Source: an uncultured Clostridia bacterium (GTDB lineage: Bacteria; Bacillota; Clostridia; Christensenellales; Borkfalkiaceae). From it: DNA of 47,068 nt. The position numbers and the translations under genes are program-made. Shown here piece after piece: positions 24,121 through 46,441 of the stretch. The notes under the pieces are model-generated. The model saw only the letters and a list, made by a program, of their open reading frames with translations. It had not been told where the DNA came from and made no database searches. Position 1 is the stretch's first letter, and the number at the start of each line of letters is the position of its first letter. The stretch covers positions 1 through 47,068 of the forward strand of contig CANQXA010000012.1 in assembly GCA_947627765.1 (NCBI GenBank), given 5' to 3'.

Positions 24121-24195
24121 AACTCAGTTGGGTTAGGATGGGCATCGCAGGTTGTGATATAATATCCCCACTATTTTTACAGGAGGATATGAAAA

Positions 24196-24645: not shown

Positions 24646-24677
24646 GCGCGAAGAAAGCTCCAACCAAACAAAAGCGG

Positions 24678-24706
24678 GACAGGCATGAAAATGCCTGTCT
24701 TTCTTT
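24678..24706 (+). terminator. Terminator of the four-helix membrane protein gene
   Basis: GACAGGCAT (24678-24686), loop GAAA, ATGCCTGTC (24691-24699), then TTTCTTT. Confidence 0.9.
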
Positions 24707-24724
24707 ATGCGGACGGGGAAAGAG

Positions 24725-24753
24725 TTGCCAAACGCGTTCTGATCTGCTATACT
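24725..24753 (+). promoter_or_regulatory. Promoter of the trypsin-like lipoprotein gene
   Basis: TTGCCA (24725-24730), 17-base spacer, TATACT (24748-24753), 42 bases before the ATG at 24795. Confidence 0.7.
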
Positions 24754-24794
24754 ATATGGAAGCGGGCATACGATCCGCCGAAGGGGGCTATCCG

Positions 24795-26138: not shown

Positions 26139-26153
26139 GGCCCGCATCACAGC

Positions 26154-26178
26154 AAACCCCTCCTTTGGAGGGGTTTTT
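26154..26178 (+). terminator. Terminator of the protease gene
   Basis: AAACCCCTCC (26154-26163), loop TTT, GGAGGGGTTT (26167-26176), continuing in T. Confidence 0.9.
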
Positions 26179-26215
26179 ACTTTATTTATCAAATCGAAAG
26201 CAACCGAAAAAAGTT

Positions 26216-26260
26216 ACATTAAACTTAATGTTTGCGGAATTGAAAAATTTGTGCTATAAT
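26216..26260 (+). promoter_or_regulatory. Promoter and palindromic operator of the glycan locus
   Basis: TTGCGG (26232-26237), 17-base spacer, TATAAT (26255-26260). Directly upstream, abutting the -35, lies ACATTAAACTTAATGT (26216-26231), 7-bp arms around AC. It is a good candidate for the LacI-family regulator encoded in the same locus (39316), though the centre is not the usual CG. Confidence 0.65.
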
Positions 26261-26353
26261 AACACCAAGATGAGCGCAGATAACTGTTTCGCCCGTTAAA
26301 TTCTTTCAAAAATGTGGGATATTTGTTCGTTTTTGGCAAAAGCTGACCATAAA

Positions 26354-26412
26354 GCGAACAAAATCGTTCCGCAAGCGGGGGTACCCCCGCTCTGTTTGGC
26401 AACGCCAAACAG
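26354..26412 (+). promoter_or_regulatory. Structured 5' leader of the glycan locus
   Basis: Within a ~260-base leader, three consecutive structures are visible: GCGAACAAAATCGTTCCGC (26354-26372, an imperfect hairpin shared with the tRNA-Arg terminator), the perfect 18-bp palindrome AGCGGGGGTACCCCCGCT (26374-26391), and CTGTTTGGC-AAC-GCCAAACAG (26392-26412). An A-run, not a T-run, follows, so it is not a terminator on this strand. The rest of 26261-26497 shows no gene. Confidence 0.55.
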
Positions 26413-26497
26413 AAAAAAAGATTTATAGGGCGGCGTCGAATGGGCTCAAACGCACCACAATCCCGTGCGGAAAAATAAAACGGAGGAAGCGTATGCG

Positions 26498-26530
26498 ATG
26501 GGGATTGTATCGTATGCGGAAATCGTATGA
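26498..26530 (+). CDS. Possible 10-codon upstream ORF
   Basis: ATG at 26498, 11 bases after GGAGG (26482-26486), encodes MGIVSYAEIV and ends in a TGA that overlaps the ATG of the large lipoprotein gene (ATGA, 26527-26530). The large gene has only a weak ribosome site of its own, so re-initiation after this ORF could set its expression. A second out-of-frame ATG at 26493 is nearer the GGAGG site. No known peptide. Confidence 0.35.
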   Translation: MGIVSYAEIV

Positions 26531-30216: not shown

Positions 30217-30243
30217 GCATACCCCCCCTCCAACCCCACCCTC

Positions 30244-30320
30244 AGTCCCCTTCGGGGGACTGCGGGCGGGGTCCCTTTGAACCCGTTCGCCCGATGGGGC
30301 GTTTGTCCCCATCGGGCGAA
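30244..30320 (+). promoter_or_regulatory. Intercistronic hairpins between the giant lipoprotein and the transporter genes
   Basis: AGTCCCC-TTCG-GGGGACT (30244-30261) and a perfect 14-bp stem TTCGCCCGATGGGG/CCCCATCGGGCGAA (30286-30299, 30307-30320). No T-tract follows and no promoter is seen before 30371. It may protect the 3' end of the first message or give partial termination, so the surface protein is made in excess over the transporter. Confidence 0.55.
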
Positions 30321-30370
30321 ATAAAATGTTTCCCCCCCATATCCCGATCCCAATATCCAAAGGAGTATCT

Positions 30371-32215
30371 ATGAAAAAGTTTTTGAAGTATTTTACGACG
30401 GTCTGCCTCGCCTTCATTTTGACCTTCGGCGCCATGCTGACGGGTTGCGGAGGCGGCGGCAAAGATCCCGAAAAGGATGAGTATACCGTCACCTACAACC
30501 TCAATTACGACGGCGCACCCGACGCGAGAGTGGTCACCGTCAAGGCGAACACCCGTACCTCCAACTGGCGTGCGACCCGCAAGGGCTACACCCTCGAAGG
30601 TTGGTACACCGAAAAGTCCACCCAAAACAAGTACGACTTCATGGAGTACGTCAACTCCGATCTTCAGCTGTGGGCGAAGTGGAATAAGGACGCGGAGAAG
30701 CGCTCCGTCTCCTTCGACTTCAACTATGAGGGCGGCGGCGAACCCGCGGTCGTCAGCGTAGACGAGGGAAGCCTCATCAGCGAGAGCCTCATTCCCGCTT
30801 GCCCCCGTCTCGGAATGGAATTCGAGGGTTGGTACCGCGACGTCGCTTGCAGCGCCGACCAAAAGTGGAACTTTGCGACCGATACGGTCGGCGATTCCGC
30901 GCTCACCCTCTATGCGAAGTATCAAGTCAACTCCTCCATCGACCGCAACGACGACGGCTCGATCAAATACGACAACGTGCAGGTCACCGTTTGGACGGCA
31001 GTCGATTTCGGCTTCAAGTCGAAGCTCGATATCCTCGCAAGAAAGTTCAACCAACAGCACAAGGGCGAGATCACCATCAATCTGACGAGCGGCACGCTCA
31101 CCAACGCGATGCAATCGTCCACGGCGATCCGTATCCAGCAGAACCCCAACATCCTCGCCACCTACTCGACGTATTACAGCGCGATAGACGTGATGGATTT
31201 CGCGGGCGTTACCCATACCGACACCGACTATTACGAGGGCGCCGTGCGGGACGCTTACGTCAACGGCAAGCTCTATTCGCTCACCTTCCTCACCGGCGTT
31301 CCCTACCTCGTCTACAACAAAGCGCTCATGACGAAGTACAATACCGAGCAGACCATGCCCGCGAGCTACTCTGAGTTTAAGGAGCTCCTGCTCAAAGTCT
31401 ATGCGGGTGAATCGGTGACGAATCCCTCCTTCAATACCATTCTCACCTCTCCCGAGTGGACCTTCAAAGAGGGTACCCTGATGAGCGCCTTCATGCAGAA
31501 CGGCGCCGACTACACGACCCTCGAAAACGGCAACGTGATCAACAAGTGGGGCAAGGAAGACAACGATCCCACCTTCCTCAAAGCGGTGACGGCGTTCAAG
31601 AACACCTATAACCTGTTCGGCGCTTCGAGCGAACTTCACGGCGCGCTCACCGTTGCCGAGTACGGCGACGGGACGACGCTCTCGAGAGTGGGCGACGGCA
31701 CGGCGTTCATGGGGATCGTCAACTTCCCCGCGGCGTCTTCGAGCGTCGCTTCGAGCAGTACGCTCGGGTATATGCCCATTGCCGGTCTCTTCTCGGACGA
31801 CGAGGCGACCCGCAATCTCATCTCTGCCGACAATATCGGCTTCCAGTTCTACAAGGCGGCGGACGTCTCCCTGACCCAGCTTGCGGCGGGCGCTCTCTTT
31901 GCGGACTATGTGCGGCAGAACAGCGCGGACTTCGCCGACAACGGTTGGATGCCCTCTTACCGTCCCGCCCTTGCATCGGACACCTATCAGAATCTCACCT
32001 CCGCTGTTTCCAAACTCGTCAAGGCAGTCTGCCCTCATCCCGAGAACCTTCGCACCTTCGACGGTTGCCAGTCCCTCAAAGAGGTCTTCAATAAGATCGC
32101 GGCGGAGGGTGTGGTCGTTCCCGTTCTCAGTTATCCGAGCGTGAGCGACGAAGATTTCTTGCTCTATGCAGAATCCCTTCGCGACCAGATCCAAAGTCAG
32201 CTCGGCATGGTTTAA
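30371..32215 (+). CDS. Solute-binding lipoprotein with two N-terminal InlB-type B-repeats
   Basis: 614 residues from the ATG after AAAGGAG. Lipobox LTGC (Cys26), then GGGGK. Residues ~37-106 and ~110-186 are two Listeria-Bacteroides (Flg_new/InlB B) repeats, each with the GYTLEGWY or GMEFEGWY core and a closing LWAKW or LYAKY. From ~202 an ABC sugar-binding fold of the MalE type follows (FGFKSKLDILARKFNQQHKG, LTFLTGVPYLVYNKALM, PASYSEFKELLLKV). Ordinary solute-binding proteins are ~420 residues, so the added repeats are the oddity. They may hold the binding domain away from the membrane or contact wall or glycan. It belongs to the ABC importer encoded downstream; the sugar is unknown. Confidence 0.85.
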   Translation: MKKFLKYFTTVCLAFILTFGAMLTGCGGGGKDPEKDEYTVTYNLNYDGAPDARVVTVKANTRTSNWRATRKGYTLEGWYTEKSTQNKYDFMEYVNSDLQLWAKWNKDAEKRSVSFDFNYEGGGEPAVVSVDEGSLISESLIPACPRLGMEFEGWYRDVACSADQKWNFATDTVGDSALTLYAKYQVNSSIDRNDDGSIKYDNVQVTVWTAVDFGFKSKLDILARKFNQQHKGEITINLTSGTLTNAMQSSTAIRIQQNPNILATYSTYYSAIDVMDFAGVTHTDTDYYEGAVRDAYVNGKLYSLTFLTGVPYLVYNKALMTKYNTEQTMPASYSEFKELLLKVYAGESVTNPSFNTILTSPEWTFKEGTLMSAFMQNGADYTTLENGNVINKWGKEDNDPTFLKAVTAFKNTYNLFGASSELHGALTVAEYGDGTTLSRVGDGTAFMGIVNFPAASSSVASSSTLGYMPIAGLFSDDEATRNLISADNIGFQFYKAADVSLTQLAAGALFADYVRQNSADFADNGWMPSYRPALASDTYQNLTSAVSKLVKAVCPHPENLRTFDGCQSLKEVFNKIAAEGVVVPVLSYPSVSDEDFLLYAESLRDQIQSQLGMV

Positions 32216-32227
32216 CGGGAGGCGGCG

Positions 32228-34219
32228 ATGAAAGCAAAGTATTTTCTTCCCATGCTGCTCGCGGTGCCGCTGTGTTTGGGCGTCGCCGCGTGCGGGGGCG
32301 GGAAAAACCCCCAAAAGCCCATTGACGGAACGGCGTGGGAATTGAAGTCCCCCGACCAGTCCCTCAAGATGCAGATCGTGCTCGATAACTTCGGCTCCCT
32401 CACGTATACCGTCGTCAAGGACAAGACACCCGTCGTGGAGACCTCCTCGCTCGGCTTCGAGCTCGCCGAGGACAACCTTTCCGAGATGCTCGTCTTCGAC
32501 AGCGTGGAAACGCAGGAGATCGATTTCAGCTATCAGAACATCTCGGGCAAGCACGCTACGGTAGACGTTACGGGCAGTGAGACCAAGCTCACCTTCAAGG
32601 GCTCCTCCTTCTATCTCGACGTCACGGCGCGCATCTACGACGACGGCTATGCCTTCCGCTACGGCATCCGCGCCATGGACGACAGCGAAGGGACGATGCA
32701 GGTGATCGCCGAGCGGTCGGAGTTTGCCCTTCCCTCCGACTCTACGACCTATATCCAACCCTATAAGACCAACACCTCCAAGCTGAGCTGCTTCTCCTAC
32801 GAGGAGGCTTACACCCGCAAGAAGGCGAAATCCCTCGCGGGCAGAAAGATCTCCATGCCCATGCTCTATCAGGCGGGCGATACGGACGTTTGGTCGCTCA
32901 TCACCGAGTCCGAACTCATCGGAAGCGGATTCTACGGCTCTTTCCTCGAAGAACAGCCCGAGAACGAGGGGATGGGGATCCTTCAAACCGTTCCCTCCCC
33001 CGCGGGCGTCCAACAGGACAACGACATGATCGCCTATCCCTTCGAATCGCCGTGGAGAGTTGCCTCCGTCGGCTCGATGGCGGACGTCATCGAGAGCGAG
33101 ATCGTCGAAAAGGTGTACGGCGACGTGGAGTATTGGAAACCCGATAACTACGCCGACCTCTCCCCCGAAGAGCAGGAGACGTACAACTACGATTGGGTCG
33201 AACCGGGCGTGGTCGCATGGAACTGGCTCAAAAATCCCGGCAGACAGACCGACTTCACGCTTCACCGCGAGTACGTCGATCTCGCCGCCGACATGGGCTG
33301 GACATACATGATCCTCGACGGCGGCTGGAATAGCGGTCTCAACGTGGAAAACTTCAAGCAGTTCACCGCCTACGCGCACAGCAAGGGCGTGAAGGTCATC
33401 GCTTGGTGCAACGCGCTCACCGATTTCTCCAACGGCTCCGCCTCCGCGCTTGAGCTCAAACTCGGGAATTGGAAGAGCTGGGGCATCGACGGCATCAAGA
33501 TCGACTTCTTCGACGGGCAGAACGCCACCAATCCCACCCATCAGGGCGAGGACGTCAACACCATCAAATGGTACGAGACCATCTATCAGGTGACTGCGCG
33601 TCTTCGCATGATCGTCAACTGCCACGGCGCCAACAAGCCCACGGGCGAGCGCAGGATCTATCCCCACGTCATGAACCGCGAGGCGATCCGCGGCAACGAG
33701 TTCACGAGCGTCGACAGCACCATCATCGTCAACTCTTTGTTCGTGCGCATGACGGTCGGCCCCACCGACTTCACGCCCGTCGTCAAGCCCTATACCAAGG
33801 GTACGACGATGGCGCATCAGATGGCGCTTGCCGTGCTCTACGAGTCGGGCACGCCCTCCATGGCGGACCTTCCCGTCACCTATGCCGACGGGAAGATCAA
33901 CGACTTCTACAAGGCGGTCCCCTGCTCGGCATGGGATGAGATCAAGTACCTCGGCGGCGAGCTCGATGGTTACTTCATGGCGGCGATCCGCGTCGGAGAC
34001 GATTGGTTCGTCGCGGGCGTGAATACCATCACCGAACGCACCGTGGACATCGATTTCTCCTTCCTCGGAGACGGCAACTATACCGCGACGCTCTTCACCG
34101 ACGACGCTTCGAGCAATACGCAAGTCACGCGCGAGGATACGACGCTCACGAAGAGCGACAGCCGCTCGGTCCGTCTTGCGCCCAACGGCGGATTCGCATT
34201 CCATTTGGTCAAAAATTAA
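32228..34219 (+). CDS. Glycoside hydrolase family 97 lipoprotein
   Basis: 663 residues with signal peptide and Cys22 (VAAC, then GGGK), so surface-anchored. The N-terminal beta-sandwich (~35-290) and the central TIM barrel (YMILDGGWN, VIAWCNALTDFSN, GIDGIKIDFFDG, RMIVNCHGANKPTGERR, NREAIRGNEF) and C-terminal beta domain are typical of GH97. GH97 contains inverting alpha-glucosidases and retaining alpha-galactosidases; Asp426 in IKIDFF is where the retaining clade has its nucleophile, so the alpha-galactosidase type is more likely. It sits 12 bases after the B-repeat binding protein, between the two solute-binding lipoproteins, and probably trims the glycan before import. Confidence 0.88.
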   Translation: MKAKYFLPMLLAVPLCLGVAACGGGKNPQKPIDGTAWELKSPDQSLKMQIVLDNFGSLTYTVVKDKTPVVETSSLGFELAEDNLSEMLVFDSVETQEIDFSYQNISGKHATVDVTGSETKLTFKGSSFYLDVTARIYDDGYAFRYGIRAMDDSEGTMQVIAERSEFALPSDSTTYIQPYKTNTSKLSCFSYEEAYTRKKAKSLAGRKISMPMLYQAGDTDVWSLITESELIGSGFYGSFLEEQPENEGMGILQTVPSPAGVQQDNDMIAYPFESPWRVASVGSMADVIESEIVEKVYGDVEYWKPDNYADLSPEEQETYNYDWVEPGVVAWNWLKNPGRQTDFTLHREYVDLAADMGWTYMILDGGWNSGLNVENFKQFTAYAHSKGVKVIAWCNALTDFSNGSASALELKLGNWKSWGIDGIKIDFFDGQNATNPTHQGEDVNTIKWYETIYQVTARLRMIVNCHGANKPTGERRIYPHVMNREAIRGNEFTSVDSTIIVNSLFVRMTVGPTDFTPVVKPYTKGTTMAHQMALAVLYESGTPSMADLPVTYADGKINDFYKAVPCSAWDEIKYLGGELDGYFMAAIRVGDDWFVAGVNTITERTVDIDFSFLGDGNYTATLFTDDASSNTQVTREDTTLTKSDSRSVRLAPNGGFAFHLVKN

Positions 34220-34237
34220 AAATAAGGCAGGTAAACT

Positions 34238-35692
34238 ATGAAAAAAACAATCTTTTGCGCGATCGCGCTCGCTTCCGCGATGACGCTCGCATTTGCGGGT
34301 TGCGGCGGAGGCAAGGATCCCGGCCCCGGCCCCGGTCCCAAGCCGGGAGATACCATCTCCAACCCGTGGTGGACGACGACGGGCGAGCTCGACATGGACG
34401 GCGATAGCCCCGTATTCGAGGACGTCGAGATCACGCTGAGCACGATCGTCAACGGCGAAGACCTCGCGGGCTTCAACCAGATCATCGCCCAGTTCAACAA
34501 CGCGTACAGGGGCAAGATCAGCATCGAAGTCAACAGCGTCAACCAAAACGATTACGAGAGCACGGTGATGAGCCAGATCACGCAGAACAACAATCCGCCC
34601 GATCTCATCATGACCCACCAAAAGATGCTCAAATCGTTCGTGGAGCAGAAGACCATCCAGCCCTTCGACGAAGCGATGGAGCAATCGGGGATCGAGATCA
34701 GCCTTTCCGACTACGCCGCCGATCTCGCCAAGTATGCTTCCCTCGGCTACGATGGGTATACGTTCAGCGTTCCCATCGACGCGCAGTGCCAGGTCATCTA
34801 CTACAACAAGCAGATCCTTGCAAAGTACGGCGGAGAGCTTCCCACGAACCATGAGGAGCTCGTCGAACTCTGCAACACCGTTGCCGCGGGCGAGAACATC
34901 GTCCCCATCGCGTGGAATACCTCCCTCGAATTCTTCCCGATGTACACCTTCCTCACGGCGGTCATCCAAAACGGCGGCGACCTCTATGACGAATCCGATT
35001 ACACGGTGCATTGGAGCGAGGGCGACAACCTCACGGCGTTCACGAACGCGATCAAGTCCATCCGCGACCTCGTGAAGCACACGCCTCAGCTCGCCCGTTG
35101 GGACGCGGGCGCGGGCGCGCTCAGCGACTTCCTCGCCCAAAAGGCGCTCTTCTTCCTCGGAATGCCTTGGAACTTCAATTCCATCGTCGAGTCCTTCGGC
35201 GCGCAGAACGGGAATCTCTCCAAAGACGCGGTGCTCAGCGGCTACATCGGCGGCACTTCCATCTCCAACTGGTTCGCCCTCGAGGAGAACGAGAATTCCG
35301 ATAAGATCTTCGGCGATGCCCACTTCTTCGCGATCTCCAAGTCGGTGCGCGACATCAACAAGAAGGCGGCGATCTGCGAGTTCGTGAAGTGGTTCACCCA
35401 AACGGCGTCCGTGGGCGCGCTGTGGGCGGAAGCGGGGCACATCAGCGGCTCCACCGTCGTCACCAACAGCGACGAGTATATCGAGAACGAGTTCGTCAAC
35501 GACTATATCACCCACTTCTATCCCGACATCAACCGCTTCGAGTGCATCGGGAACACCCCTTACCATGCCGACCTGATCAGCTCCATCACCAAGATCTTCG
35601 CGACCACCAAGAACAATACCACCGCCGAACAGGATAAGAGCGCGATCACCGCGGCGCAGACCGAACTCAACGGAATCATTACATTCTTCTGA
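34238..35692 (+). CDS. ABC sugar transporter solute-binding lipoprotein
   Basis: 484 residues. Lipobox AFAGC (Cys22) is followed by a short Gly-Pro linker and a MalE-type binding fold: ITLSTIVNGEDLAGFNQIIAQFNNAYRGKI, NNNPPDLIMTHQKMLKSF, YTFSVPIDAQCQVIYYNKQILAKY, and a helical C-terminal domain. It lies 5 bases before the first permease gene. It is the second binding protein in the locus and more conventional than the B-repeat one, so the single permease pair may be fed by two receptors of different specificity. Confidence 0.92.
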   Translation: MKKTIFCAIALASAMTLAFAGCGGGKDPGPGPGPKPGDTISNPWWTTTGELDMDGDSPVFEDVEITLSTIVNGEDLAGFNQIIAQFNNAYRGKISIEVNSVNQNDYESTVMSQITQNNNPPDLIMTHQKMLKSFVEQKTIQPFDEAMEQSGIEISLSDYAADLAKYASLGYDGYTFSVPIDAQCQVIYYNKQILAKYGGELPTNHEELVELCNTVAAGENIVPIAWNTSLEFFPMYTFLTAVIQNGGDLYDESDYTVHWSEGDNLTAFTNAIKSIRDLVKHTPQLARWDAGAGALSDFLAQKALFFLGMPWNFNSIVESFGAQNGNLSKDAVLSGYIGGTSISNWFALEENENSDKIFGDAHFFAISKSVRDINKKAAICEFVKWFTQTASVGALWAEAGHISGSTVVTNSDEYIENEFVNDYITHFYPDINRFECIGNTPYHADLISSITKIFATTKNNTTAEQDKSAITAAQTELNGIITFF

Positions 35693-35696
35693 TCAT

Positions 35697-36746: not shown

Positions 36747-37650
36747 GCGCCGCAGAACCAAATCCGAGCGCACGCGGATCCGTGAAAAGACGGTCTCCTT
36801 CATCGTACTGCTCATCATCACGATCCTGTGGGCGTTCCCCTTGGTCTATATGCTCGGGACGTCCTTCAAGTCCGATCTCGATCTTCAGCTCCATCCCGAC
36901 CGTCTCTTCCCTTCCAGCTGGAGCGAATGGACCCTCGACCACTACGAGGGCTTTATCGTCCGCGACGGCGCGATCGACAATATGCCCCTCTGGATGCTCA
37001 ACTCCCTTTGGTCCACCCTTGCGACGGTGGCGCTCACCGTCATTTTGGACCTCATCACGGCGTACGCCGTCGTGTTCGTGGAATTCAAGGGGAAGAAGAT
37101 CTTCATGAAATTCCTTCTCCTTTGGATGGCGGTGCCGGGCGTCATCGGAACGGCTCCTTCCTTCGCCCTCTTTGCGACGATCCGCAATTCCCTCCGCATC
37201 ACGGGGCTCGGGAATTACTTCTACATCTATATGTGGATCATATTGCCGGGCACGACGGGCATCTTCAATATGCTTCTGATGCGCAACTTCTTCGCGTCCA
37301 TCCCGCAGGACATTGTAGACAGCGCCAAGAGCGACGGCGCGGGCAACGCGAAGATCTTCTTCAAGATCGTCTGCCCGCTCGCCAAGTCTACGATGATGCT
37401 CATCGTCCTCTTCACCTTCACGGGAAGCTGGAACAACCTCATCTGGCCGCAACTTTTGTTGGGGTCGGAGAGCAGTTATTGGAACACCATCACCGTTGCG
37501 CTCACGGGTTACACGGGCGGCAGTGCATGGAGCTATTTGGGCATCGCGATGGCGACGAGCGTGTTCGCGCTTCTGCCCATCATCATAATCTTTATCATCA
37601 CCCAAAATAAGATGATCGACGGTCTCGCGACGACCGGTATCAAGGGATAA
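36733..37650 (+). CDS. ABC sugar transporter permease (MalG/UgpE type)
   Basis: 305 residues, about six membrane helices and an EAA-like loop at ~195-220 (DSAKSDGAGNAKIFFKIVCPLAKS). A strong GGAGG site lies inside the end of the preceding permease gene. It pairs with that permease; the ATPase follows after four bases. Confidence 0.92.
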   Translation: MTATKRRRTKSERTRIREKTVSFIVLLIITILWAFPLVYMLGTSFKSDLDLQLHPDRLFPSSWSEWTLDHYEGFIVRDGAIDNMPLWMLNSLWSTLATVALTVILDLITAYAVVFVEFKGKKIFMKFLLLWMAVPGVIGTAPSFALFATIRNSLRITGLGNYFYIYMWIILPGTTGIFNMLLMRNFFASIPQDIVDSAKSDGAGNAKIFFKIVCPLAKSTMMLIVLFTFTGSWNNLIWPQLLLGSESSYWNTITVALTGYTGGSAWSYLGIAMATSVFALLPIIIIFIITQNKMIDGLATTGIKG

Positions 37651-37654
37651 CATT

Positions 37655-39319
37655 ATGAGTGAAAATACCTTCCTCTCCCTCAGGCACCTCGAAAAGGTGT
37701 ATTCGAACGGAGAAAAAGCAGTTTACAACTTCGATCTCGACATCGACCGCAACGAGTTCATCGTCATCGTGGGTCCCTCGGGTTGCGGAAAATCCACGAC
37801 CCTCCGCATGATCGCGGGGCTCGAAGACATCACCTCGGGCGACATCTATCTCGAGAACGAGCTCCTCAATTTCAAGCCCTGCAAAGACAGGAAGATGGCG
37901 ATCGTCTTCCAGAGCTATGCGCTCTATCCGCAGATGACCGTCTACGACAACATCGCCTTCCCGCTCACGATCAACACCTATCCCTTCCCCGCCGTTGCAG
38001 GGAAGTTGAAGGCGTGCGCAGAAGTGCGGGAGATCCTCCAAAAAGAGGAGGCGTCCGCCGCGCTCGAAAACCTTCCCAAAAAGAGCAAGGACCGCGCCGA
38101 AGCCGTTGCCGACCGCCTCGAAATTTCTCTCGCCGCCGCCAAGCTCTATCTCTCTTTGATTGCGGAAGAGGCACCCATGTCCAAGCTCGAGGCTCTCGAA
38201 AGCGCCGCAAAGGAGGAAGCCGCGGCGAAGAAACTCGTCTACAACGAGAAGTTCGAACTGCTCGATCAGGACGGGAACGTCAAGATGGAAGACCGTAAGA
38301 TGACTTCCTACGAGATCCGCAGAAAAGTCTATGATACGGCGGAGATCCTCGATCTCGTTCCCTATCTCGACAAACTGCCCAAGGAACTTTCGGGCGGGCA
38401 GATGCAACGCGTCGCCCTCGGCAGGGCGATCGTGAAGAACGTGCCCGTCTTCCTCATGGACGAGCCCCTCTCCAACCTCGACGCCAAGCTCCGCCTCACG
38501 ATGAGGAGCGAGATCGTCAAGCTCCACAACCGCATCAATGCGACGACCATCTACGTCACCCACGACCAGACCGAGGCGATGACGATGGCGACCAAGATCG
38601 TGGTCATGTCCAAGGGATTCATCCAGCAGATCGGAACGCCCGAGGAGGTATATTCCCGTCCCGCCAACATCTTTGTGGCGAAGTTCGTCGGCTCTCCCTC
38701 GATGAACATCTTCGAGGCGACCTACTGCCGCGAGACGGGCGAGCTCGTCTACGGCGATTTCCGCATTCCGCTCTCCGAAGATTTCCGCGCCAAGCACGAC
38801 GAATTCTACCGCGCCAAGGCGGAGGAATTGGGCGGCGCGCTCGAAAACTTCGGCGATCCCGCCCGCGAGATGATCAAGAAGATCCTCTCCGCGACGGGGG
38901 AAAAGTTCGAGACGACCAAGAAAGTCAAGAAAAAGGGCTTCAAGCGGATCATCGGGCTCTTCAAGCGGGACAAAGAGGAGGAGAGCGCGGCGGAGAGGCC
39001 GATCGCCGAGGAAATGGTGAAAAAGCTCAACGCCTGCCTCGAAGGGGACCATATCCTTCTCGCCGGCGTGCGCCCCGAGCGCATCCGCGTGGAGAAGTAC
39101 GACCCTTCCAAGACCTATGAAAACTGCATTATCGTAAAGCCCACCGTCTGCGAACTGCTCGGCTCGGAGTACAACGTCCACATCGAGTACTGCAACAAGA
39201 GCATCGTCGGGCAGGTGGACGCCAAGGAAAAGATCACGACGAAGGACGACCTCGCCGTCACGTTCTCGGGCGAAGACGTCCACCTGTTCGATCCTATCAC
39301 GGGGGAGGTATTGAAATGA
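37655..39319 (+). CDS. Sugar ABC transporter ATPase (MsmX/UgpC-like) with two large insertions
   Basis: 554 residues where the family usually has ~370. Walker A GPSGCGKST (40-48), Q-loop Gln86, signature LSGGQ (245-249), Walker B FLMDEP (266-271) and H-loop His303 are all intact. Between Q-loop and signature is an insertion of ~110 residues (~108-225), highly charged and helical (PKKSKDRAEA, SAAKEEAAAKK). A second of ~75-85 residues (~375-460) with a Lys-rich core (TKKVKKKGFKR) interrupts the C-terminal OB/TOBE region before GVRPERI. The first insertion lies in the helical subdomain that touches the permeases. It energises the importer of this locus and is probably dedicated to it. Stop overlaps the regulator start by four bases. 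Confidence 0.9.
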   Translation: MSENTFLSLRHLEKVYSNGEKAVYNFDLDIDRNEFIVIVGPSGCGKSTTLRMIAGLEDITSGDIYLENELLNFKPCKDRKMAIVFQSYALYPQMTVYDNIAFPLTINTYPFPAVAGKLKACAEVREILQKEEASAALENLPKKSKDRAEAVADRLEISLAAAKLYLSLIAEEAPMSKLEALESAAKEEAAAKKLVYNEKFELLDQDGNVKMEDRKMTSYEIRRKVYDTAEILDLVPYLDKLPKELSGGQMQRVALGRAIVKNVPVFLMDEPLSNLDAKLRLTMRSEIVKLHNRINATTIYVTHDQTEAMTMATKIVVMSKGFIQQIGTPEEVYSRPANIFVAKFVGSPSMNIFEATYCRETGELVYGDFRIPLSEDFRAKHDEFYRAKAEELGGALENFGDPAREMIKKILSATGEKFETTKKVKKKGFKRIIGLFKRDKEEESAAERPIAEEMVKKLNACLEGDHILLAGVRPERIRVEKYDPSKTYENCIIVKPTVCELLGSEYNVHIEYCNKSIVGQVDAKEKITTKDDLAVTFSGEDVHLFDPITGEVLK

Positions 39320-40299
39320 GTAAGAAAGACGTCAGCATGAAGACCATAGCGTCCGAGCTCGGAGTCTCCATCAACACCGTCTCACACGCACTGCGGGATA
39401 AGGACGACATTTCCATCGAGTTGAAGAGCAAGATCCGCCAAAAGGCGATCGAGCTCGGGTATATGCCCAACCGCGTCTCCCGTTCGATGAAAAAGGAGGA
39501 GCGGAGCGCCGTCGCGATCGTGATCAACTCCTTCAACAATCTCTATTTCAACACCCTCTGCAACTATTTGATGGAGATCTTCAACGAGCGGGACGAATTC
39601 GATTTTCTGCTTCTCTTTACGCCTGCCGCGATCACGGGGAGGGACATCGTCAAGCGCTGTCTCCTCCAACGGGTGGATTTTCTGATCACCCACCTTCCCA
39701 TGGATAAAGACGCATGGGAGCTCGCCCAGCTCAACAACCTTCAAGTCGTGATGGTGGGAAGCGCTTCCGCCTATTCGTCGGACTGCATCGTCGTAGACGA
39801 GGCGCAGGGCTGTGCGCTCGCGGCGCGCTATCTTTCCCTCTTCCATCCCGCGAGCAAGTTCCTGTATGTGGGGATCGACTACCCCGTCTCGGACTACCGT
39901 TTCAATCTCTACAAGCAGGAGATCGAGTCGGTCAACGGGGAGGGCGTGGTGCAGTTCAACATCGATAAGGAGAACATCGAGCGCCTCTACAACTATATCC
40001 GCAACGGGTACCGCCGCATCTTCTGCTATAACGACGCCGTCGCCTACGACGCGCTCTATAAGTTAGACCGTCTCGCGGTGGACATCCGCAAGCTCTATCC
40101 CGATCTCCATATCGTCGGGTTCGACGGGCTCTGCGAGATCATTTGCGGGCTCAAACCCATCACGACCGTGCAGATCAACTTCCCCGAGCTCGCCCGCGAG
40201 ACGTACGATCTCATCAAACAGCGGATCGACGATCCCTCCGCGCCCCCGCAGAGGAAGGTCGTTCCCGTAACCCTTCACCAACGTTCTCCCAAGGAGTAA
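39316..40299 (+). CDS. LacI family transcriptional regulator
   Basis: 327 residues. The N-terminal helix-turn-helix (VSMKTIASELGVSINTVSHALRD, ~6-28) is followed by a hinge and the periplasmic-binding-like effector domain (SAVAIVINSFNNLYFNTL, DCIVVDEAQGCALAARYL, IVGFDGL). It is expected to bind a sugar released from the glycan and control the locus, most likely through ACATTAAACTTAATGT at 26216. It is coupled to the ATPase gene (ATGA) and preceded by a GGGGGAGG site. Confidence 0.92.
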   Translation: MSKKDVSMKTIASELGVSINTVSHALRDKDDISIELKSKIRQKAIELGYMPNRVSRSMKKEERSAVAIVINSFNNLYFNTLCNYLMEIFNERDEFDFLLLFTPAAITGRDIVKRCLLQRVDFLITHLPMDKDAWELAQLNNLQVVMVGSASAYSSDCIVVDEAQGCALAARYLSLFHPASKFLYVGIDYPVSDYRFNLYKQEIESVNGEGVVQFNIDKENIERLYNYIRNGYRRIFCYNDAVAYDALYKLDRLAVDIRKLYPDLHIVGFDGLCEIICGLKPITTVQINFPELARETYDLIKQRIDDPSAPPQRKVVPVTLHQRSPKE

Positions 40300-40300
40300 T

Positions 40301-42229
40301 ATGAAACACACCCCGAAAGATTTCACGCTCGAAGAGAAGTTCCGCCTGCTCGCGGGAAAGGACGCGTGGCACACCGAAGACTTGGGCGGAAAGCTCTATG
40401 AAGTCACCGTCTCGGACGGGCCGCTCGGCGTGCGCAAGCCTGCCGAAAAAGACGGCAAAGAGTACGATCTTCCCTCCATCGCTTACCCCTCCGCAGAGGT
40501 CCTATCGCAGACATGGTCCCCCTCTCTTGCCTATACGGTGGGGGAATGTCTCTCCGACGACTGCATCGAAAAGGACGTGGATATCCTGTTGGCGCCCGGC
40601 GTCAACATCAAGCGGACGCCGATGTGCGGGCGCAACTTCGAATACTTTTCGGAGGACCCTTATCTTGCGGGCGTCTTTGCGCGGGAATACATCCGCGGCG
40701 TGCAGAGCGGGCACGTCGGCACGTCGCTCAAACACTTCTGCGCCAACAACCGCGAATACGGAAGACTTTGGGTGAGCAGTGAAGTGGACGAGAGGACGCT
40801 TCGGGAGATCTATTTGAAGCCCTTCGAGATCGCCTGTGAAGCCGATCCTGCAACGGTGATGTGCAGTTACAATTTGGTCAACGGAATGCGGATGGCGGAG
40901 CACGCCCCCCTCTTCAAGCTCCTGCGCGGGGAATTTTGGCGGGAGGACGGCGTGATCATCTCCGATTGGGGCGCCGTGCGCGACCGCGCCGCCTCCGTCC
41001 GCGCGGGATTGGACCTCGAAATGCCCTTCTCGCAGAGCGGGCTTGAAAATCTCCGCGCCGCCTATGCGCGGGGAGAGATCACCGAGGAAGAGATCGACCG
41101 CTGTGTGGAGCGCGTGCTCGCCCTCATCGAACGCTGTGAGCGGGAAAAACCGCTAAGGGCAGTCCGCCGCTCCAAAGAGGAGCGCCTTGCCGCCGCCCAA
41201 CGGGTCGCGGAAGAGGGGATCGTCCTCTTGAAGAACAACGGGATCCTGCCCTTGAAGGACGGCTGTTCCGTCTCGATCGGCGCCGAACACGCCTTCCGCT
41301 ATTACAGCGGCGGCGGATCTTCCCGCGTACAGACAGAGACGACGCCCCGTACGCTTTGCGAGACGCTGAAAGCGGAGCTTCCGCACAGCGACATATCGGC
41401 GGCGGGCGTTTGGGACGGGGATACCTTCCGCGACGCCTACCGAAACGCCCGCTTCCGGGACGCGGCGATTGTCGTATGCGGCTATGAGGACAGCGAGGGG
41501 GACGACCGCGCCTCCATGCGTCTCCGCGAAAACGAGGAGCGCCTCATTCTCGAGACGGCGCGGTGCAATCCCAATACGATCGTCGTTCTGCACTACGGAG
41601 CGGCGGTGGACGCCGGCCCGTGGATCGATCAAGTTGCCGCGGTCGTCTCTGCGGGATATGCGGGCGAGCGGGGAAACGAAGCGCTTGCGGGCGTTCTCTC
41701 GGGGAGGGTCAACCCGAGCGGAAAACTCACCGAGACCTTCGCCCTCTCGCGCGAGAGCTATGCCTCCGAACACGCCTACCGCAGTTACCGCGTCTCCCTC
41801 TATGAGGAGGGGCTCAAAGTCGGCTACCGCGATTTCGACCGCCGCAAAGAGGCGGTCCGCTTCCCCTTCGGATTCGGGCTCAGTTACTCGAAATTTGAAT
41901 TTTCCGACCTCAAGATCCAGACATGGGGTGGGGTAACGCTGTCATTTAAGATCAAAAACGTTTCAGGGCGCGCGGGTGCGGAGGTCGCCCAGATCTACCT
42001 CCGCGAGACGGACAGCCCCGTCTTCCGCCCCGAAAAAGAGCTCAAAGCGTTCGAGAAAGTAACGCTTGCGGCGGGCGAGGAGAAGACCGTGACGGTCGAG
42101 CTCAGCCGCGACGCATTCGCCTATTACTCCGTCTCCGAAGGCGGTTGGCGGGTCCGCGGCGGTGCGTACGAGATCCTCGTCGGCGCCGACGCAGAGGACA
42201 TCCGTCTTCGCGGCGTAGCCACGCTATGA
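40301..42229 (+). CDS. Glycoside hydrolase family 3 enzyme (beta-glucosidase type)
   Basis: 642 residues, no signal peptide, so cytosolic. GH3 N-terminal barrel: SDGPLGVRKP, GVNIKRTPMCGRNFEYFSEDP, SLKHFCANNRE, and nucleophile Asp222 in IISDWGAV. The GH3-C domain follows (GIVLLKNNGILPLKD, ALAGVLSGRVNPSGKLTETF), then a fibronectin-III-like tail (VSGRAGAEVAQIYLRE). It likely cleaves beta-linked sugars from imported oligosaccharides; glucose, xylose and others are all possible. It starts two bases after the LacI stop with AAGGAG just upstream. Confidence 0.92.
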   Translation: MKHTPKDFTLEEKFRLLAGKDAWHTEDLGGKLYEVTVSDGPLGVRKPAEKDGKEYDLPSIAYPSAEVLSQTWSPSLAYTVGECLSDDCIEKDVDILLAPGVNIKRTPMCGRNFEYFSEDPYLAGVFAREYIRGVQSGHVGTSLKHFCANNREYGRLWVSSEVDERTLREIYLKPFEIACEADPATVMCSYNLVNGMRMAEHAPLFKLLRGEFWREDGVIISDWGAVRDRAASVRAGLDLEMPFSQSGLENLRAAYARGEITEEEIDRCVERVLALIERCEREKPLRAVRRSKEERLAAAQRVAEEGIVLLKNNGILPLKDGCSVSIGAEHAFRYYSGGGSSRVQTETTPRTLCETLKAELPHSDISAAGVWDGDTFRDAYRNARFRDAAIVVCGYEDSEGDDRASMRLRENEERLILETARCNPNTIVVLHYGAAVDAGPWIDQVAAVVSAGYAGERGNEALAGVLSGRVNPSGKLTETFALSRESYASEHAYRSYRVSLYEEGLKVGYRDFDRRKEAVRFPFGFGLSYSKFEFSDLKIQTWGGVTLSFKIKNVSGRAGAEVAQIYLRETDSPVFRPEKELKAFEKVTLAAGEEKTVTVELSRDAFAYYSVSEGGWRVRGGAYEILVGADAEDIRLRGVATL

Positions 42230-42253
42230 CTTCAGATTGGACTTCCGAAACTT

Positions 42254-43168
42254 ATGCGCATTATCTTTGAAAAAGAGGGCCAGCCGAAATCTCAGCCCGA
42301 CCCTTTCATCTTCGCCTACGGCGGAAAATATTACATCTATTCGACGGGTGCAGACGGCGTCTGCGCTTACCGTGCCGAACGTCTCGACGGCGATTGGGAA
42401 TACCTCGGCGTCATCTATGCGCGGGCGGGGCGGAAGCAGTATTGGGCGCCCTGCGTCTTGACGGAGGGAGACGCCGTCTACCTCTATGTCTCCACCATGC
42501 CCGAAGAGACGGAGGATGACCACACGCAGTGTTTGGAAGTGGCGTCCGCCCCCTCCCCCGAGGCTCCCTTCCGCTATCTCCGCACCTTGCTTCCCCCTTT
42601 CAGCATCGATTCCCATGTGGTACGGAGCGGGGGCAAGCTCTATATGTTTTACTCCGTCAACGACTACGACGCGGAGCGCAGCGGGACGTATATCGTCGTC
42701 CAGAAGATGCGTTCTCCCACCGAGATGGAGGGCGAACCCGTTGCGGTGATCCGTCCCACGCTCGACGAGGAGATCTTCCTGCGCGACCGCTTCCAAAAGG
42801 GCAAGCATTGGCATACCGTCGAGGGCCCCTGCTATTTCCGCGACGGGGACGACCACTACCTCATTTACAGTGCGGGCTGCTATGAGAGCGCGCAGTATTT
42901 CCTCGGCTATGCCGCCGCCCATGCAAAGGAGGACGATCTGACCAAGATCGTATTCGAAAAGAAGCCGTCCGATACCGTTTACGCCCCCCTCATCGCCAAA
43001 AACGAGGAAGAGGACGGAACGGGGCACAACAGCGTCATCAAGATCGGCGGCGACTATTGGTGCGTCTACCACGGAAGGGACGTCAACGAGATCAAAAATT
43101 ACGATAACCGCAGTGCGCGCATCTGCCGTCTTGTCCCCAAGGGCGGAGAGCTCGTCGCCCTGCGGTGA
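42254..43168 (+). CDS. Glycoside hydrolase family 43-like enzyme
   Basis: 304 residues, no signal peptide. It has the five-bladed propeller pattern of GH43 with the three expected acids: general base Asp16 (QPDPF), pKa-modulating Asp119 (SIDSHVV) and general acid Glu190 (VEGPCYF). GH43 enzymes act on arabinose and xylose linkages, and some on galactan. There is no accessory domain. It lies 24 bases after the GH3 gene with a weak ribosome site and is followed directly by the DUF4965 gene. With GH3 it suggests a pentose- or mixed-linkage glycan, which is not certain. Confidence 0.82.
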   Translation: MRIIFEKEGQPKSQPDPFIFAYGGKYYIYSTGADGVCAYRAERLDGDWEYLGVIYARAGRKQYWAPCVLTEGDAVYLYVSTMPEETEDDHTQCLEVASAPSPEAPFRYLRTLLPPFSIDSHVVRSGGKLYMFYSVNDYDAERSGTYIVVQKMRSPTEMEGEPVAVIRPTLDEEIFLRDRFQKGKHWHTVEGPCYFRDGDDHYLIYSAGCYESAQYFLGYAAAHAKEDDLTKIVFEKKPSDTVYAPLIAKNEEEDGTGHNSVIKIGGDYWCVYHGRDVNEIKNYDNRSARICRLVPKGGELVALR

Positions 43169-43179
43169 TAGGAGGCTCT

Positions 43180-45153
43180 ATGGAGAGAATTTTGCCCGCA
43201 TACCCGCTCTTTGTCAAGGACCCCAATTTTTCCTTTTGGAGCGCTTCGGACCTTATCGCAGAGAGCGAAGTCCAGAGCTGGTGGGGCGCCGAAAAGAGGA
43301 TCTTGGGCTACATCAGGACGGGCGGGAAGACCTACCGCTTCCTCGGCAAGGGCTTCGGCGAAGCCGCCGCGGTGCAGACCGCGCTCGGCGTCACGGCGTT
43401 CTCCACCGATTATACTTTCGAGGCGGGCGGCGCGACCGTAAAACTCCGCTTTGTCTCCCCCCTTCCCCCCGACGACTTCGGGCTTCTTTCGATGCCCGTC
43501 TGCTATTTGGACTATGAGATCGCGGGCGCGGACGCCGAGATCGCCCTCTTCTTCCACCGCGGGATCGCCTACAACGACCTTCCCGACAACGGCGTCAAAG
43601 AGGTGCGCGGCGACGTCGTGCCCCGCGCGGGCTACGAATGCGCCTTCTTCGGCAGAAAGCGCCAGCTCCCGCTCTCCAACCACGACGACTTTGCGGGTGC
43701 CGATTGGGGATATTTCTATGCGGCGGGCGAGCGGGCGCGCCTTTTGGGTGCGGAAGACGTCGGCCGCTGGATCGGCGGCGGCAGTGCGGAGGGCTGTGGG
43801 GAAGACTACCTCGCCTGCTTTGCTTCGTCGCCCCGCGGCGTCCTGCTCTTCGGCTACGACGACCTCGTCTCCATCGATTATTTCGGCGATCACCGCAAGG
43901 GATATTATCTCGAAGATCACACGATTTTCGAGGCGCTTGACCACGTATGGGCACACCATGTCTTGATCGACGCCCAACTTTCCGCGTTTGACGCAGATCT
44001 TCGGGAGCGCGCAAAACCGTACGGGGAGGAGTATCTCCGTATCCTCTATGCCTCCCTGCGCCAGAGCGTCGCGAGCCACAAACTCATCCGTGACCGCGCG
44101 GGCGACGCCGTCTTTTTATCCAAGGAGTGCGGCTCCAACGGGTGCATTGCGACGGTGGACGTCAGCTATCCCTCCATGCCCCTCTATCTCCTCTATGCGC
44201 CCGAGCTCGTCAAGGGCATGATGCGCCCCATCTTCGCCTTTGCGCGGACGCCTGCGTGGAAGTTCCCCTTCGCCCCGCACGACGCGGGCACCTATCCCGC
44301 CTGTTGCGGGCAGGTCTACGGCTTCACGCGGAAAGAGGGGACGGGCAATCTCCGCAAGACGAAGTTTTTCGAGACCCATTTCCCCATCTATATGCTTCCC
44401 GGGGAGCTCGGGCTCTACGATCCCGCCTGCCAGATGCCCGTCGAGGAGTGCGCCAACCTGCTCGTCATGCTTCTCGCCTGCTACCGCGCGGACGGCGACC
44501 TCACGTTCTTTACGCAGAACCGCGATCTGGCGGCGCAGTACGCCGATTATCTCGTCCGCAACGGGCTGTATCCCGAAAACCAGCTTTGTACGGACGATTT
44601 CGCGGGGCATCTCGCCAACAATTTGAACCTTGCCGTGAAAGCGACGGTCGGCGTCGCCGCGTACGCCGAGCTCGTCTCCAAGAGCGACGAAGAGGAGGGA
44701 AAGAGGTACCGCGGGATCGCGCTCTCCTTTGCCGCCGAGATCGCAAAGACCGCCCAAGGCCGCGCCCATATGCCTCTCACATGGGAGGGTGACGGGTCCA
44801 CCTATTCGCTCAAATACAATCTCGTCTTCGATAAACTGCTCGGACTGGGGCTCTTCCCCGCGGAACTCTTCGAAAAGGAGACCGACTGCTATCTCGAAAA
44901 ACTCGCCCCTTACGGCACTCCGCTCGACCACCGCGCAAGCTACACCAAGAGCGATTGGCTGATGTGGTCGGCTTGCCTCACGGACGATGACGCCAAGCGG
45001 CACAAACTGATCGCCGCGCTCGACCGCTTCCTCAGGGAATCTCCCGACAGGATCCCGTTCGGCGATTGGTACGATACGGTCACGGGAGAACATCTTCACT
45101 TCCGCGCGCGCACCGTACAAGGGGGCTGTTTCATCTTACTGCTCCGTCACTGA
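43180..45153 (+). CDS. DUF5127/DUF4965/DUF1793 protein (GtaA-like, possible glycosidase)
   Basis: 657 residues from the ATG at 43180, which follows AGGAGG by five bases; a GTG at 43165 overlaps the previous stop but has no site. The order is an N-terminal beta domain (DUF5127-like), then DUF4965/DUF1793 with SKECGSNGCIATVDVSYPSMPLYLLY, HDAGTYPACCGQVYG and MPVEECANLLVM, an alpha/alpha barrel. Fungal GtaA gave the family its glutaminase label, but a location among GH3, GH43 and GH97 genes fits a glycosidase better. It lacks a signal peptide, so it is cytosolic. A terminator follows. Confidence 0.8.
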   Translation: MERILPAYPLFVKDPNFSFWSASDLIAESEVQSWWGAEKRILGYIRTGGKTYRFLGKGFGEAAAVQTALGVTAFSTDYTFEAGGATVKLRFVSPLPPDDFGLLSMPVCYLDYEIAGADAEIALFFHRGIAYNDLPDNGVKEVRGDVVPRAGYECAFFGRKRQLPLSNHDDFAGADWGYFYAAGERARLLGAEDVGRWIGGGSAEGCGEDYLACFASSPRGVLLFGYDDLVSIDYFGDHRKGYYLEDHTIFEALDHVWAHHVLIDAQLSAFDADLRERAKPYGEEYLRILYASLRQSVASHKLIRDRAGDAVFLSKECGSNGCIATVDVSYPSMPLYLLYAPELVKGMMRPIFAFARTPAWKFPFAPHDAGTYPACCGQVYGFTRKEGTGNLRKTKFFETHFPIYMLPGELGLYDPACQMPVEECANLLVMLLACYRADGDLTFFTQNRDLAAQYADYLVRNGLYPENQLCTDDFAGHLANNLNLAVKATVGVAAYAELVSKSDEEEGKRYRGIALSFAAEIAKTAQGRAHMPLTWEGDGSTYSLKYNLVFDKLLGLGLFPAELFEKETDCYLEKLAPYGTPLDHRASYTKSDWLMWSACLTDDDAKRHKLIAALDRFLRESPDRIPFGDWYDTVTGEHLHFRARTVQGGCFILLLRH

Positions 45154-45159
45154 CTGTCC

Positions 45160-45189
45160 CCCCCTTCCGGCGGGAAGGGGGATCTTTTT
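45160..45189 (+). terminator. Terminator after the DUF4965 gene
   Basis: CCCCCTTCC (45160-45168), loop GGCG, GGAAGGGGG (45173-45181), then ATCTTTTT. It ends only ~10 bases before the start of the transporter gene, so that gene depends on read-through or an internal promoter. Confidence 0.85.
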
Positions 45190-45199
45190 GTGAATTTTT

Positions 45200-46441
45200 A
45201 TGAAAAACCATGGATCCCGCGCGGAAAACTTCCTCATTTTCCTCTGTTTTTGCGCCTATGCCGCTTCCTATGTCGGCAGGATGAGTTACAACGCCAACAT
45301 CTCGCAGATCGAGGCGGGGCTCGGCGTCTCCCATTCGCAGTCGGGGCTCGTCACGACTTTTTTCTTCCTCGCTTACGGCACGGGCCAGCTCGTCAACGCC
45401 TTCTTTTGCAAGAGATACAACCGCAGGTTCGTGATCGCGGGCGCGCTCGCCGTCTCGGGCGGGGCGAATCTTGCGATCTTCGCGGGCGTGCCGTTTTCCG
45501 CCTATAAATATCTCTGGCTCGCCAACGGCGCCGCCCTCTCCGTGCTCTATTCCTCCATCATCACCGCCTTCGGAAAACATTTGGGGGAGCGCGCGCAGAA
45601 GCGCGGCGTGCTCGCGATGAGCTTCTCGACGAGCGCGGGGATCTTGGTCGCCTACGCTTTCAGTTCCCTCTTCGCCCTGTGGGGGCTCTACCGCTGGATG
45701 TTCTTTACGGCGGCGGCAGTCCTCTTTGCCGCCTGCCTCTTGTGGTTCTTCTCGTATGCCCCCGCGGTGGGACGGCTCGGCGCAAACGGCGAAGGTTCGG
45801 AGCTTCCCGCCCGCGGGAAGAAGTCTTGGAATTGGGGTTTTGCGCTCTATCTCGCCCCGTTCGCGCTCTATGCGGTCTTCAACAACGTCGTAAAGGACGG
45901 GCTCACGATGTGGACGCCCTCCGTCCTCATCGAACGGTATTCGCTCTCGGGAAGCGTCTCGATCATTCTGACGCTCACCCTTCCGATGGTCGCCGTGTTG
46001 GGCACGGAGCTCGCCTACCGTCTCAACGATCTCTTCAAACGGAGACACCTTCTCACGGCGGGCGCGCTGTTTTTCGTCGGAGCGGTCTCGGCGTTGGGCG
46101 TCTATTTCATCTTCGGCGTGGGACATTGGGCGTTCCTCGTCGTCCTCTTTGCGGTGGTGTATTGCTGTATGGCGGGGGTCAACAGCCTGCTCGGGAGCAT
46201 CATGCCGCTCGATCTCCGCGCCCGTGCGACGCCGGGGTTCATTTCGGGACTTTTCGACGCCTTCTGCTACGTCGGTTCGGCGGTCAGTTCGTTCGGCTTG
46301 GGATCGGTCGCCGACGCGTACGGTTGGAGCACCGTATTTCTGATCTACCTTTCGGTGTTGGCGGTCCCCGTGGTGTGCGCCGTCGTCTCCCTGTTCTTTC
46401 TGCGCCGCAAAAAACCGCCGCAACAGGACGATAAACGGTAA
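45200..46441 (+). CDS. MFS transporter (GlpT/OPA-like)
   Basis: 413 residues with 12 predicted membrane helices. The N-terminal YVGRMSYNANI and GTGQLVNAFFCKRYNRR segments resemble the organophosphate:phosphate antiporter branch. It may export or import a sugar or sugar phosphate from the locus. The ATG at 45200 has no ribosome site; the nearest purine run is in the terminator stem 18 bases away. The next in-frame ATG would remove helix 1. No terminator follows. Confidence 0.85.
   Translation: MKNHGSRAENFLIFLCFCAYAASYVGRMSYNANISQIEAGLGVSHSQSGLVTTFFFLAYGTGQLVNAFFCKRYNRRFVIAGALAVSGGANLAIFAGVPFSAYKYLWLANGAALSVLYSSIITAFGKHLGERAQKRGVLAMSFSTSAGILVAYAFSSLFALWGLYRWMFFTAAAVLFAACLLWFFSYAPAVGRLGANGEGSELPARGKKSWNWGFALYLAPFALYAVFNNVVKDGLTMWTPSVLIERYSLSGSVSIILTLTLPMVAVLGTELAYRLNDLFKRRHLLTAGALFFVGAVSALGVYFIFGVGHWAFLVVLFAVVYCCMAGVNSLLGSIMPLDLRARATPGFISGLFDAFCYVGSAVSSFGLGSVADAYGWSTVFLIYLSVLAVPVVCAVVSLFFLRRKKPPQQDDKR

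Follow-up and report, generated by a model that had tools for sequence, protein, structure and literature searches.

A seven-gene core with a lipoprotein GH97 glycosidase and an enlarged ABC ATPase in a candidate glycan-import locus of an uncultured Clostridia bacterium

The Sus system of Bacteroides combines surface capture, an enzyme of glycoside hydrolase (GH) family 97 and the import of oligosaccharides. In Firmicutes, ATP-binding cassette (ABC) importers clustered with carbohydrate-active enzymes (CAZymes) are an established concept, the Gram-positive polysaccharide utilization locus (gpPUL), as laid out in the available text of PMC8990778. Gram-positive bacteria often power several sugar ABC importers with one shared ATPase (the consulted part of PMC7658222), and a Mycoplasma operon, MAG_5030-5070, encodes a surface lipoprotein nuclease together with a solute-binding protein (SBP), an ATPase and two permeases (the accessible text of PMC3585158). 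Here a locus of twelve genes is described from an uncultured Clostridia bacterium; it lies in contig CANQXA010000012.1 of assembly GCA_947627765.1, and the stretch of 47,068 nucleotides that was analysed is referred to as the window. The locus is interpreted as a portable glycan importer of the gpPUL type, made up of a core of seven genes and of finishing enzymes that are specific to each lineage. The probability of this interpretation is put at roughly 0.6.

The GH97 protein was used to scan genome contigs and gave 14 loci, all in metagenome-assembled genomes (MAGs) labelled as Firmicutes, Clostridia, Bacilli (L042), Sellimonas (L036), 'bacterium' (L035) and, in two cases, Candidatus Borkfalkia. 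Together with a second core copy in the L031 genome (L103) and a locus in a genome of the window's own genus (G033), these make up a comparison set of 16 loci besides the window, onto which the proteins of the window were mapped; the counts are limited to loci with enough contig. The order of the core is lectin-like lipoprotein, first SBP (SBP1), lipoprotein GH97, second SBP (SBP2), permease, permease and ATPase. The part after GH97, from SBP2 to the ATPase, is complete in 13/13 other loci. This recurrence in other genomes supports the initial annotation in its view that surface capture, a surface GH97 and a dedicated ATPase belong to one coherent locus. Taken singly, SBP2 is found 3' of GH97 in all 14 loci with sequence there and permease 1 likewise in 14/14 (one partial), while permease 2 and the ATPase are each present in 13/13. 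In 13 of 14 loci the gene immediately upstream of GH97 encodes SBP1, the exception being G033. A relative of the giant lipoprotein lies upstream of SBP1 in eight of ten; L037 and L041 have a GH3 instead. Because the loci were found via GH97, the presence of GH97 itself is not counted as evidence.

The genes flanking the core are variable. A LacI gene directly 3' of the ATPase is found in 5 of 13 other loci, GH43 near the core in L029, L031 and L033, GH3 in L037, L041, L042 and G033, the DUF4965 type in L037 and G033, and GH2 in L042. The conserved unit is therefore the seven-gene core ending at the ATPase and not the whole 20 kb that had been proposed as a unit; the core part of that proposal holds, and its LacI, GH3, GH43 and DUF4965 part gives way.

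The flanking enzymes also bear on the substrate. A host glycan of mucin- or blood-group-like type, capped with alpha-galactosyl residues, is a possible though rather unlikely target in place of plant arabinogalactan or galactomannan. GH20C hexosaminidases adjoin the core in L029, L031 and L042, GH42 beta-galactosidases lie near it in L037 and L041, and several of the genome records name chickens or poultry-named species, all of which would fit such a target. The window itself has a GH43, and a GH3 for which the best NCBIfam model is an exo-alpha-1,6-L-arabinopyranosidase (527 bits, below the cut-off of 1300) whose substrates are presumably plant glycosides, and this points the other way. A substrate could not be read from the relatives of SBP2, which many sugar SBPs match equally well.

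Some further features were seen in individual loci of the comparison set. The Candidatus Borkfalkia genome G145 has two diverged core copies (L103 and L031), and L036 is a core fragment in the MAG labelled Sellimonas, by name remote from the other hosts. Downstream of the core, L037 encodes an 878-amino-acid protein with a lipoprotein-like start and no Pfam match (L037:16752-19387), and L041 a 1441-amino-acid protein, also with a lipoprotein-like start, that carries divergent InlB B-repeats (PF18998; L041:17380-21705).

The solved structures nearest to the GH97 protein are the alpha-galactosidase BT1871 (3a24, E 1.3e-43), a variant (5e1q) and 5xfm, and the match to SusB (2d73) is much weaker (E 1e-18). 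Residues D426 and E491 occupy the aligned positions of the nucleophile and the acid/base of BT1871, which we take to be residues 415 and 470 (mapped onto the alignment by counting), and both are present in 13/13 rows. By the rule for retaining and inverting GH97 catalytic residues given in the available part of PMC10086023, a catalytic Asp of the retaining type (the beta-4 nucleophile) and its partner Glu are in place. As judged from these aligned residues, the active site is that of a retaining alpha-galactosidase or beta-L-arabinopyranosidase and not that of SusB; a SusB-like starch enzyme was ruled out on the same residues. The NCBIfam model for retaining alpha-galactosidases scored 208 bits, below its cut-off of 800. 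The lipobox Cys is kept in all 12 GH97 rows that include the N-terminus.

Two proteins upstream of GH97 are candidates for capture. The giant lipoprotein has a lipobox, two immunoglobulin (Ig)-like repeats and two copies of a unit composed of an Ig-like domain and two beta-sandwiches resembling lectins or carbohydrate-binding modules (CBMs). Its Pfam matches are all sub-threshold (two Ig-like, one C1q). The structural model, which covers the first copy only, gave one Ig-like domain and two beta-sandwiches with lectin/CBM-like folds; a CBM66-like lectin domain with a sugar-binding site is a candidate identity for them. A set of Foldseek matches, at query TM 0.13-0.23 among the 50 matches listed, was too weak and was not used. 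A search for homologues found 22 proteins, which served for two alignment rows only. SBP1 consists of two InlB-type B-repeats and a solute-binding-protein fold that aligns with SBP2 over 363 columns (hhalign probability 99.9%, E 6e-31), and the lipobox Cys is kept in 12/12 rows of SBP1 and 12/12 of SBP2. The B-repeats and the repeated Ig/lectin-like domains could also belong to adhesins or stalks for mucus or food particles, with the importer reduced to SBP2, the permeases and the ATPase, and the G033 version of the core, with SBP2 and no SBP1, would agree with this. Such a division appears improbable, as SBP1 keeps the SBP fold and adjoins GH97 in all loci but that one. A capture role is proposed for both proteins.

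The ATPase has Walker A, Q-loop and signature motifs and a MalK-type C-terminal domain, and differs in the length of its helical subdomain. The spacing from Walker A to the signature is 205 residues in the window, 205-239 in the 13 core ATPases (window included) and 217 in L103; it is 98-124 in 21 other distinct MalK-type ATPases, which were chosen by similarity to that of the window and come mostly from the same genus and order, so the canonical length is exceeded here. An insert of about 110-140 residues is responsible, found in 13/13 core ATPases and L103 and in 0/21 of the others compared. In the alignment to MsmX, residues 7-113 correspond to MsmX 4-110 and residues 213-355 to MsmX 103-245, leaving 114-212 as extra. 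This is the alpha3-alpha4 loop of the helical domain, where R104 of MsmX is located; the consulted part of PMC7658222 discusses R104 among charged residues proposed to be important for serving several permeases. From its position, the insert probably commits the ATPase to its own permeases.

The sequence of the insert itself is variable. Other inserts are 22-33% identical to that of the window. When the latter alone was used as the query of a protein search, three proteins were found, one of them the window's own. A known domain was not recovered: the Pfam matches were scattered, inconsistent and sub-threshold (17 families, of which 16 appeared in just one of the 12 members), and the PDB sequence search gave no match better than E 1. 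In the structural model the confidence (pLDDT) of residues 111-220, taken by blocks, is mostly 84-90 with dips to 63-72.

Relatives of the insert occur outside the core. A profile of 12 inserts matched 15 of 396 genomes of the window's order at E <= 0.01, ten of them at E < 1e-5 and five of these ten core-bearing, and 34 of 147 genomes in the order of the Bacilli genome (that of L042); a wider profile matched 19 of 247 genomes of the class. As the 12-insert profile misses G033, its counts are lower bounds. The genome of the window has one match, the ATPase of the locus. An hhalign comparison shows that the inserts of the core are homologous to those of the Bacilli (98.8%, E 5e-17), and in a set of 22 inserts one Glu and one Gly are each conserved in 90% or more. 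An enlarged ATPase unique to this locus was thereby ruled out: the enlargement noted in the initial annotation is confirmed by the spacing, and its exclusiveness is not, homologous inserts being present in other ABC importers.

These results bear directly on a plainer explanation, that the locus is an ordinary gpPUL which spread as a useful sugar importer, its second receptor and the insert of its ATPase being neutral features carried along in the lineage, with no new mechanism. The presence of insert-bearing ATPases in several other importers, the weak conservation of the insert sequences and the fact that gpPULs with ABC importers have already been described speak for it. Against it speak the constant association of the insert with the core ATPases and its absence from all 21 others compared, and the homology and the conserved Glu and Gly between core and Bacilli inserts. 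On balance this explanation is considered less probable than a dedicated importer, a minority possibility that deserves to be kept in mind.

In the Bacilli, 27 loci (L117-L123, L145-L164) from 25 of the 34 genomes were read. Insert-bearing ATPases of small-genome Bacilli are mostly found in clusters of the order RDD, ATPase, permease, permease, SBP. A staphylococcal-nuclease-like lipoprotein adjoins the SBP in 12 of the 27 loci (by Pfam SNase for four, by BLAST for the rest). A second importer type, in L094-L099 and, among the 27 loci, in L120, L151, L155 and L162, consists of an insert-bearing ATPase, one long permease (about 610-640 amino acids overall, about 610-630 in L094-L099) and an SBP. 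The long permease is split in L155 and has two permease domains by Pfam in L097, where a GH2 adjoins the importer; no nuclease-like lipoprotein was seen in the fused-permease loci. In another glycan locus, L093:2415-11138 (G204), which is not one of the 27, the gene of a 767-amino-acid insert-bearing ATPase precedes those of three GH43 proteins and a SASA-type esterase.

A rule by which the insert implies a surface hydrolase was borne out only in part, in the 12 of 27 Bacilli loci, and the comparison covered insert-bearing ATPases only. It is doubtful, though conceivable, that the insert marks a separate class of ABC importers, each of which combines a receptor, permeases and a locked-in, dedicated ATPase with a hydrolase anchored at the surface as a lipoprotein, be it a GH97, a GH43 or a nuclease. 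If so, Borkfalkia-like Clostridia would use for the uptake of glycans the same docking domain that small-genome Bacilli use for nucleic acids, and both lineages would share a design of cutting at the surface and importing.

The distribution of the core is patchy. Within the genus of the window, 103 genomes were compared with the GH97 profile (13 rows) and four gave a match, two strong (the window and G033) and two weak and N-terminal. In the window's order 22 of 396 genomes matched, five at E = 0; judged by identical contig coordinates, these five include the genomes of L033, L037, L039 and L040. In the order of the Bacilli-labelled L042 there were matches in 4 of 147 genomes. GH97 matches were also seen in G527 and G628. 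The window GH97 is 57-58% identical to those of L029-L031, 54% to those of L033 and L037 from genomes of another family, 43% to those of L039 and L040 from a third family, and only 38% to that of G033 from its own genus. In the trees of GH97 and of the ATPase alike, G033 is placed apart from the group that contains the window (support 96/98 for GH97 and 100/98 for the ATPase). Vertical inheritance in the genus was rejected on the two strong matches among 103 genomes and on these tree positions. As the branch leading to G033 in the GH97 tree is very long, only patchiness is claimed from it. Since the core is rare in the genus and is also found in a Bacilli MAG, it probably moves between lineages, as far as sequence comparison can tell.

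The proposed mechanism can be summarised as follows. The lectin-like giant lipoprotein and SBP1 would keep a polysaccharide or other glycan on the cell surface, where the membrane-anchored GH97, acting as a retaining enzyme, would trim alpha-galactosyl or beta-L-arabinopyranosyl residues from its ends. The product would then be passed by SBP2, possibly with the help of SBP1, to the single permease pair, driven by its own dedicated ATPase. Through the insert in the alpha3-alpha4 loop this ATPase would be reserved for these permeases, in contrast to a shared ATPase of the MsmX type. In the cytosol GH3, GH43 and the DUF4965 protein would complete the breakdown under LacI control.

Several observations weigh against this mechanism. 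Its support consists of sequence comparison and models. Finding the 14 loci via GH97 biases the set toward GH97 presence. In five GH97 loci of the order that are more distant (L045, L046, L100, L101, L102), and likewise around another GH97 gene in the genome of L035 (L104), no other core genes were seen alongside, the only exceptions being weak matches to unrelated ABC ATPases and one GH3. The enzyme sets differ, with GH20, GH42 and GH2 elsewhere, so that no single substrate follows from them. With SBP1 missing in the G033 version of the core and the big lipoprotein not adjacent to it in L037 and L041, capture by both is not obligatory. The three proteins found with the insert alone mean that its sequence is poorly conserved, and its occurrence in other importers means that it is no marker of glycan uptake. 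The model of the ATPase core is poor as well (pLDDT <50 for residues 1-108 and 240-283), which is due to a shallow alignment.

The assembly of the window comprises 1.46 Mb in 46 contigs and is 93% complete; the window is contig C12. The features are listed in Table 1. As the initial annotation had it, twelve genes run in one direction, tightly packed on the + strand from 26527 to 46441, and 11 of the 12 proteins have a Pfam family above cut-off, the 1229-amino-acid first protein being the exception. The start had been placed at 26216, which falls in non-coding sequence.

Table 1. Features of the locus and its left border, in window coordinates.
Feature	Position	Strand	Remarks
Trypsin-like protease gene	24138-26138	+	Directly upstream of the locus; followed by a terminator-like stem
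Terminator-like stem	26154..26176	+	10-bp stem, T-rich tail; taken as left edge of the locus
Non-coding leader, 388 bases	26139..26526	+	Four further inverted repeats; possible regulatory region
Giant lipoprotein, 1229 aa	26527..30216	+	Lipobox; Ig-like and lectin/CBM-like domains
SBP1	30326..32215	+	Lipoprotein; Pfam Flg_new 1.5e-22; InlB-type B-repeats and SBP fold
GH97 glycosidase	32228..34219	+	Lipoprotein; Pfam N, catalytic and C domains
SBP2	34238..35692	+	Lipoprotein sugar-binding protein; Pfam SBP_bac_8
ABC permease 1	35697..36746	+	Pfam BPD_transp_1
ABC permease 2	36733..37650	+	Pfam BPD_transp_1
MalK/MsmX-type ATPase, 554 aa	37655..39319	+	Pfam ABC_tran; enlarged at two sites
ATPase insert, 109 aa (residues 108-216)	37976..38302	+	Helical subdomain, at the MsmX 103-110 loop
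Second ATPase enlargement, ~80 residues	38720-39055 (approximate)	+	Lysine-rich stretch, C-terminal regulatory domain
LacI-family regulator	39316..40299	+	Pfam
GH3	40301..42229	+	Pfam
GH43	42254..43168	+	Pfam
DUF4965/GtaA six-hairpin protein	43165..45153	+	Pfam GtaA_6_Hairpin/DUF5127/DUF4964 (formerly DUF4965 family)
Major facilitator superfamily (MFS) transporter	45200..46441	+	Pfam; weak organophosphate-antiporter-like matches

The gap between the first protein and SBP1 is 109 bases, and those from SBP1 to the MFS gene are -14 to 46 bases. These short gaps suggest an operon and co-transcription of the genes without demonstrating it. Terminator-like stems are about as numerous in the scanned region as expected by chance, and the promoter search gave three promoter-like sites against a shuffled mean of 5.7, below chance. 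GH3 and GH43 are probably cytosolic, as no signal sequence was seen by eye in either. The PDB sequence search with the DUF4965 protein gave no match; a DUF4965-type family has been proposed as glycoside hydrolases (the accessible part of PMC9668830), and the protein is possibly a glycosidase. A tRNA-Gly is located at the contig end (46993-47067), just past the locus, and is a possible integration site. A Pfam scan of 17 proteins of the window, which begins after the first 18 kb, found no integrase.

The twelve-gene locus resembles the Sus system in outline, in surface capture, GH97 and oligosaccharide import. The 'Sus-type' label initially given to it is acceptable as such an analogy and no further: Pfam found no family of SusC, the TonB-dependent transporter, or of its partner SusD among the 12 locus proteins, to which that search was confined, and the GH97 is lipoprotein-anchored and predicted to be retaining, whereas SusB is inverting. 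The locus is not a member of the Sus systems. With BT1871 and BT3661/BT3664 of B. thetaiotaomicron the GH97 shares the retaining Asp and Glu and the N, barrel and C domains, but it is distant from them in sequence and lies within a Gram-positive ABC locus. The ATPase shares the ABC motifs and the MalK-type C-terminal domain with MsmX and MalK and differs from them by the 109-residue alpha3-alpha4 insert and the approximately 80 extra residues in the C-terminal domain. Twelve of the 27 Bacilli loci have the same gene types as the Mycoplasma nuclease operon, as far as the accessible text of PMC3585158 describes it, and an insert-bearing ATPase; the surface enzyme is a nuclease there and a glycosidase in the window.

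The closest likeness in kind is to the gpPUL, in which an ABC, MFS or phosphotransferase system (PTS) importer is found with glycosidases; here the importer is of the ABC type, its SBPs are lipoproteins and the regulator belongs to a sugar type. Transporter and CAZymes occur together in a Gram-positive lineage (relatives labelled Firmicutes, Clostridia and Candidatus Borkfalkia), and of co-regulation the LacI gene and the short gaps are the only signs seen. The locus differs from the general gpPUL in its fixed seven-gene core, in the two SBPs flanking a lipoprotein GH97, in the giant lectin-like lipoprotein and in its own insert-bearing ATPase. The statement that no described system has this set of genes holds among the open-access papers listed in searches aimed at this set or its hosts, none of which was seen to describe it, but the kind of system is established in the available text of PMC8990778. 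With surface capture, an exo-enzyme at the surface and a private ATPase, a transferable core of this kind would let poorly studied, small-genome bacteria keep what they cut. The locus also opens to experiment the general question of what links a sugar importer to an ATPase of its own. What is new is the specific seven-gene core; the kind to which it belongs, the gpPUL, is already known.

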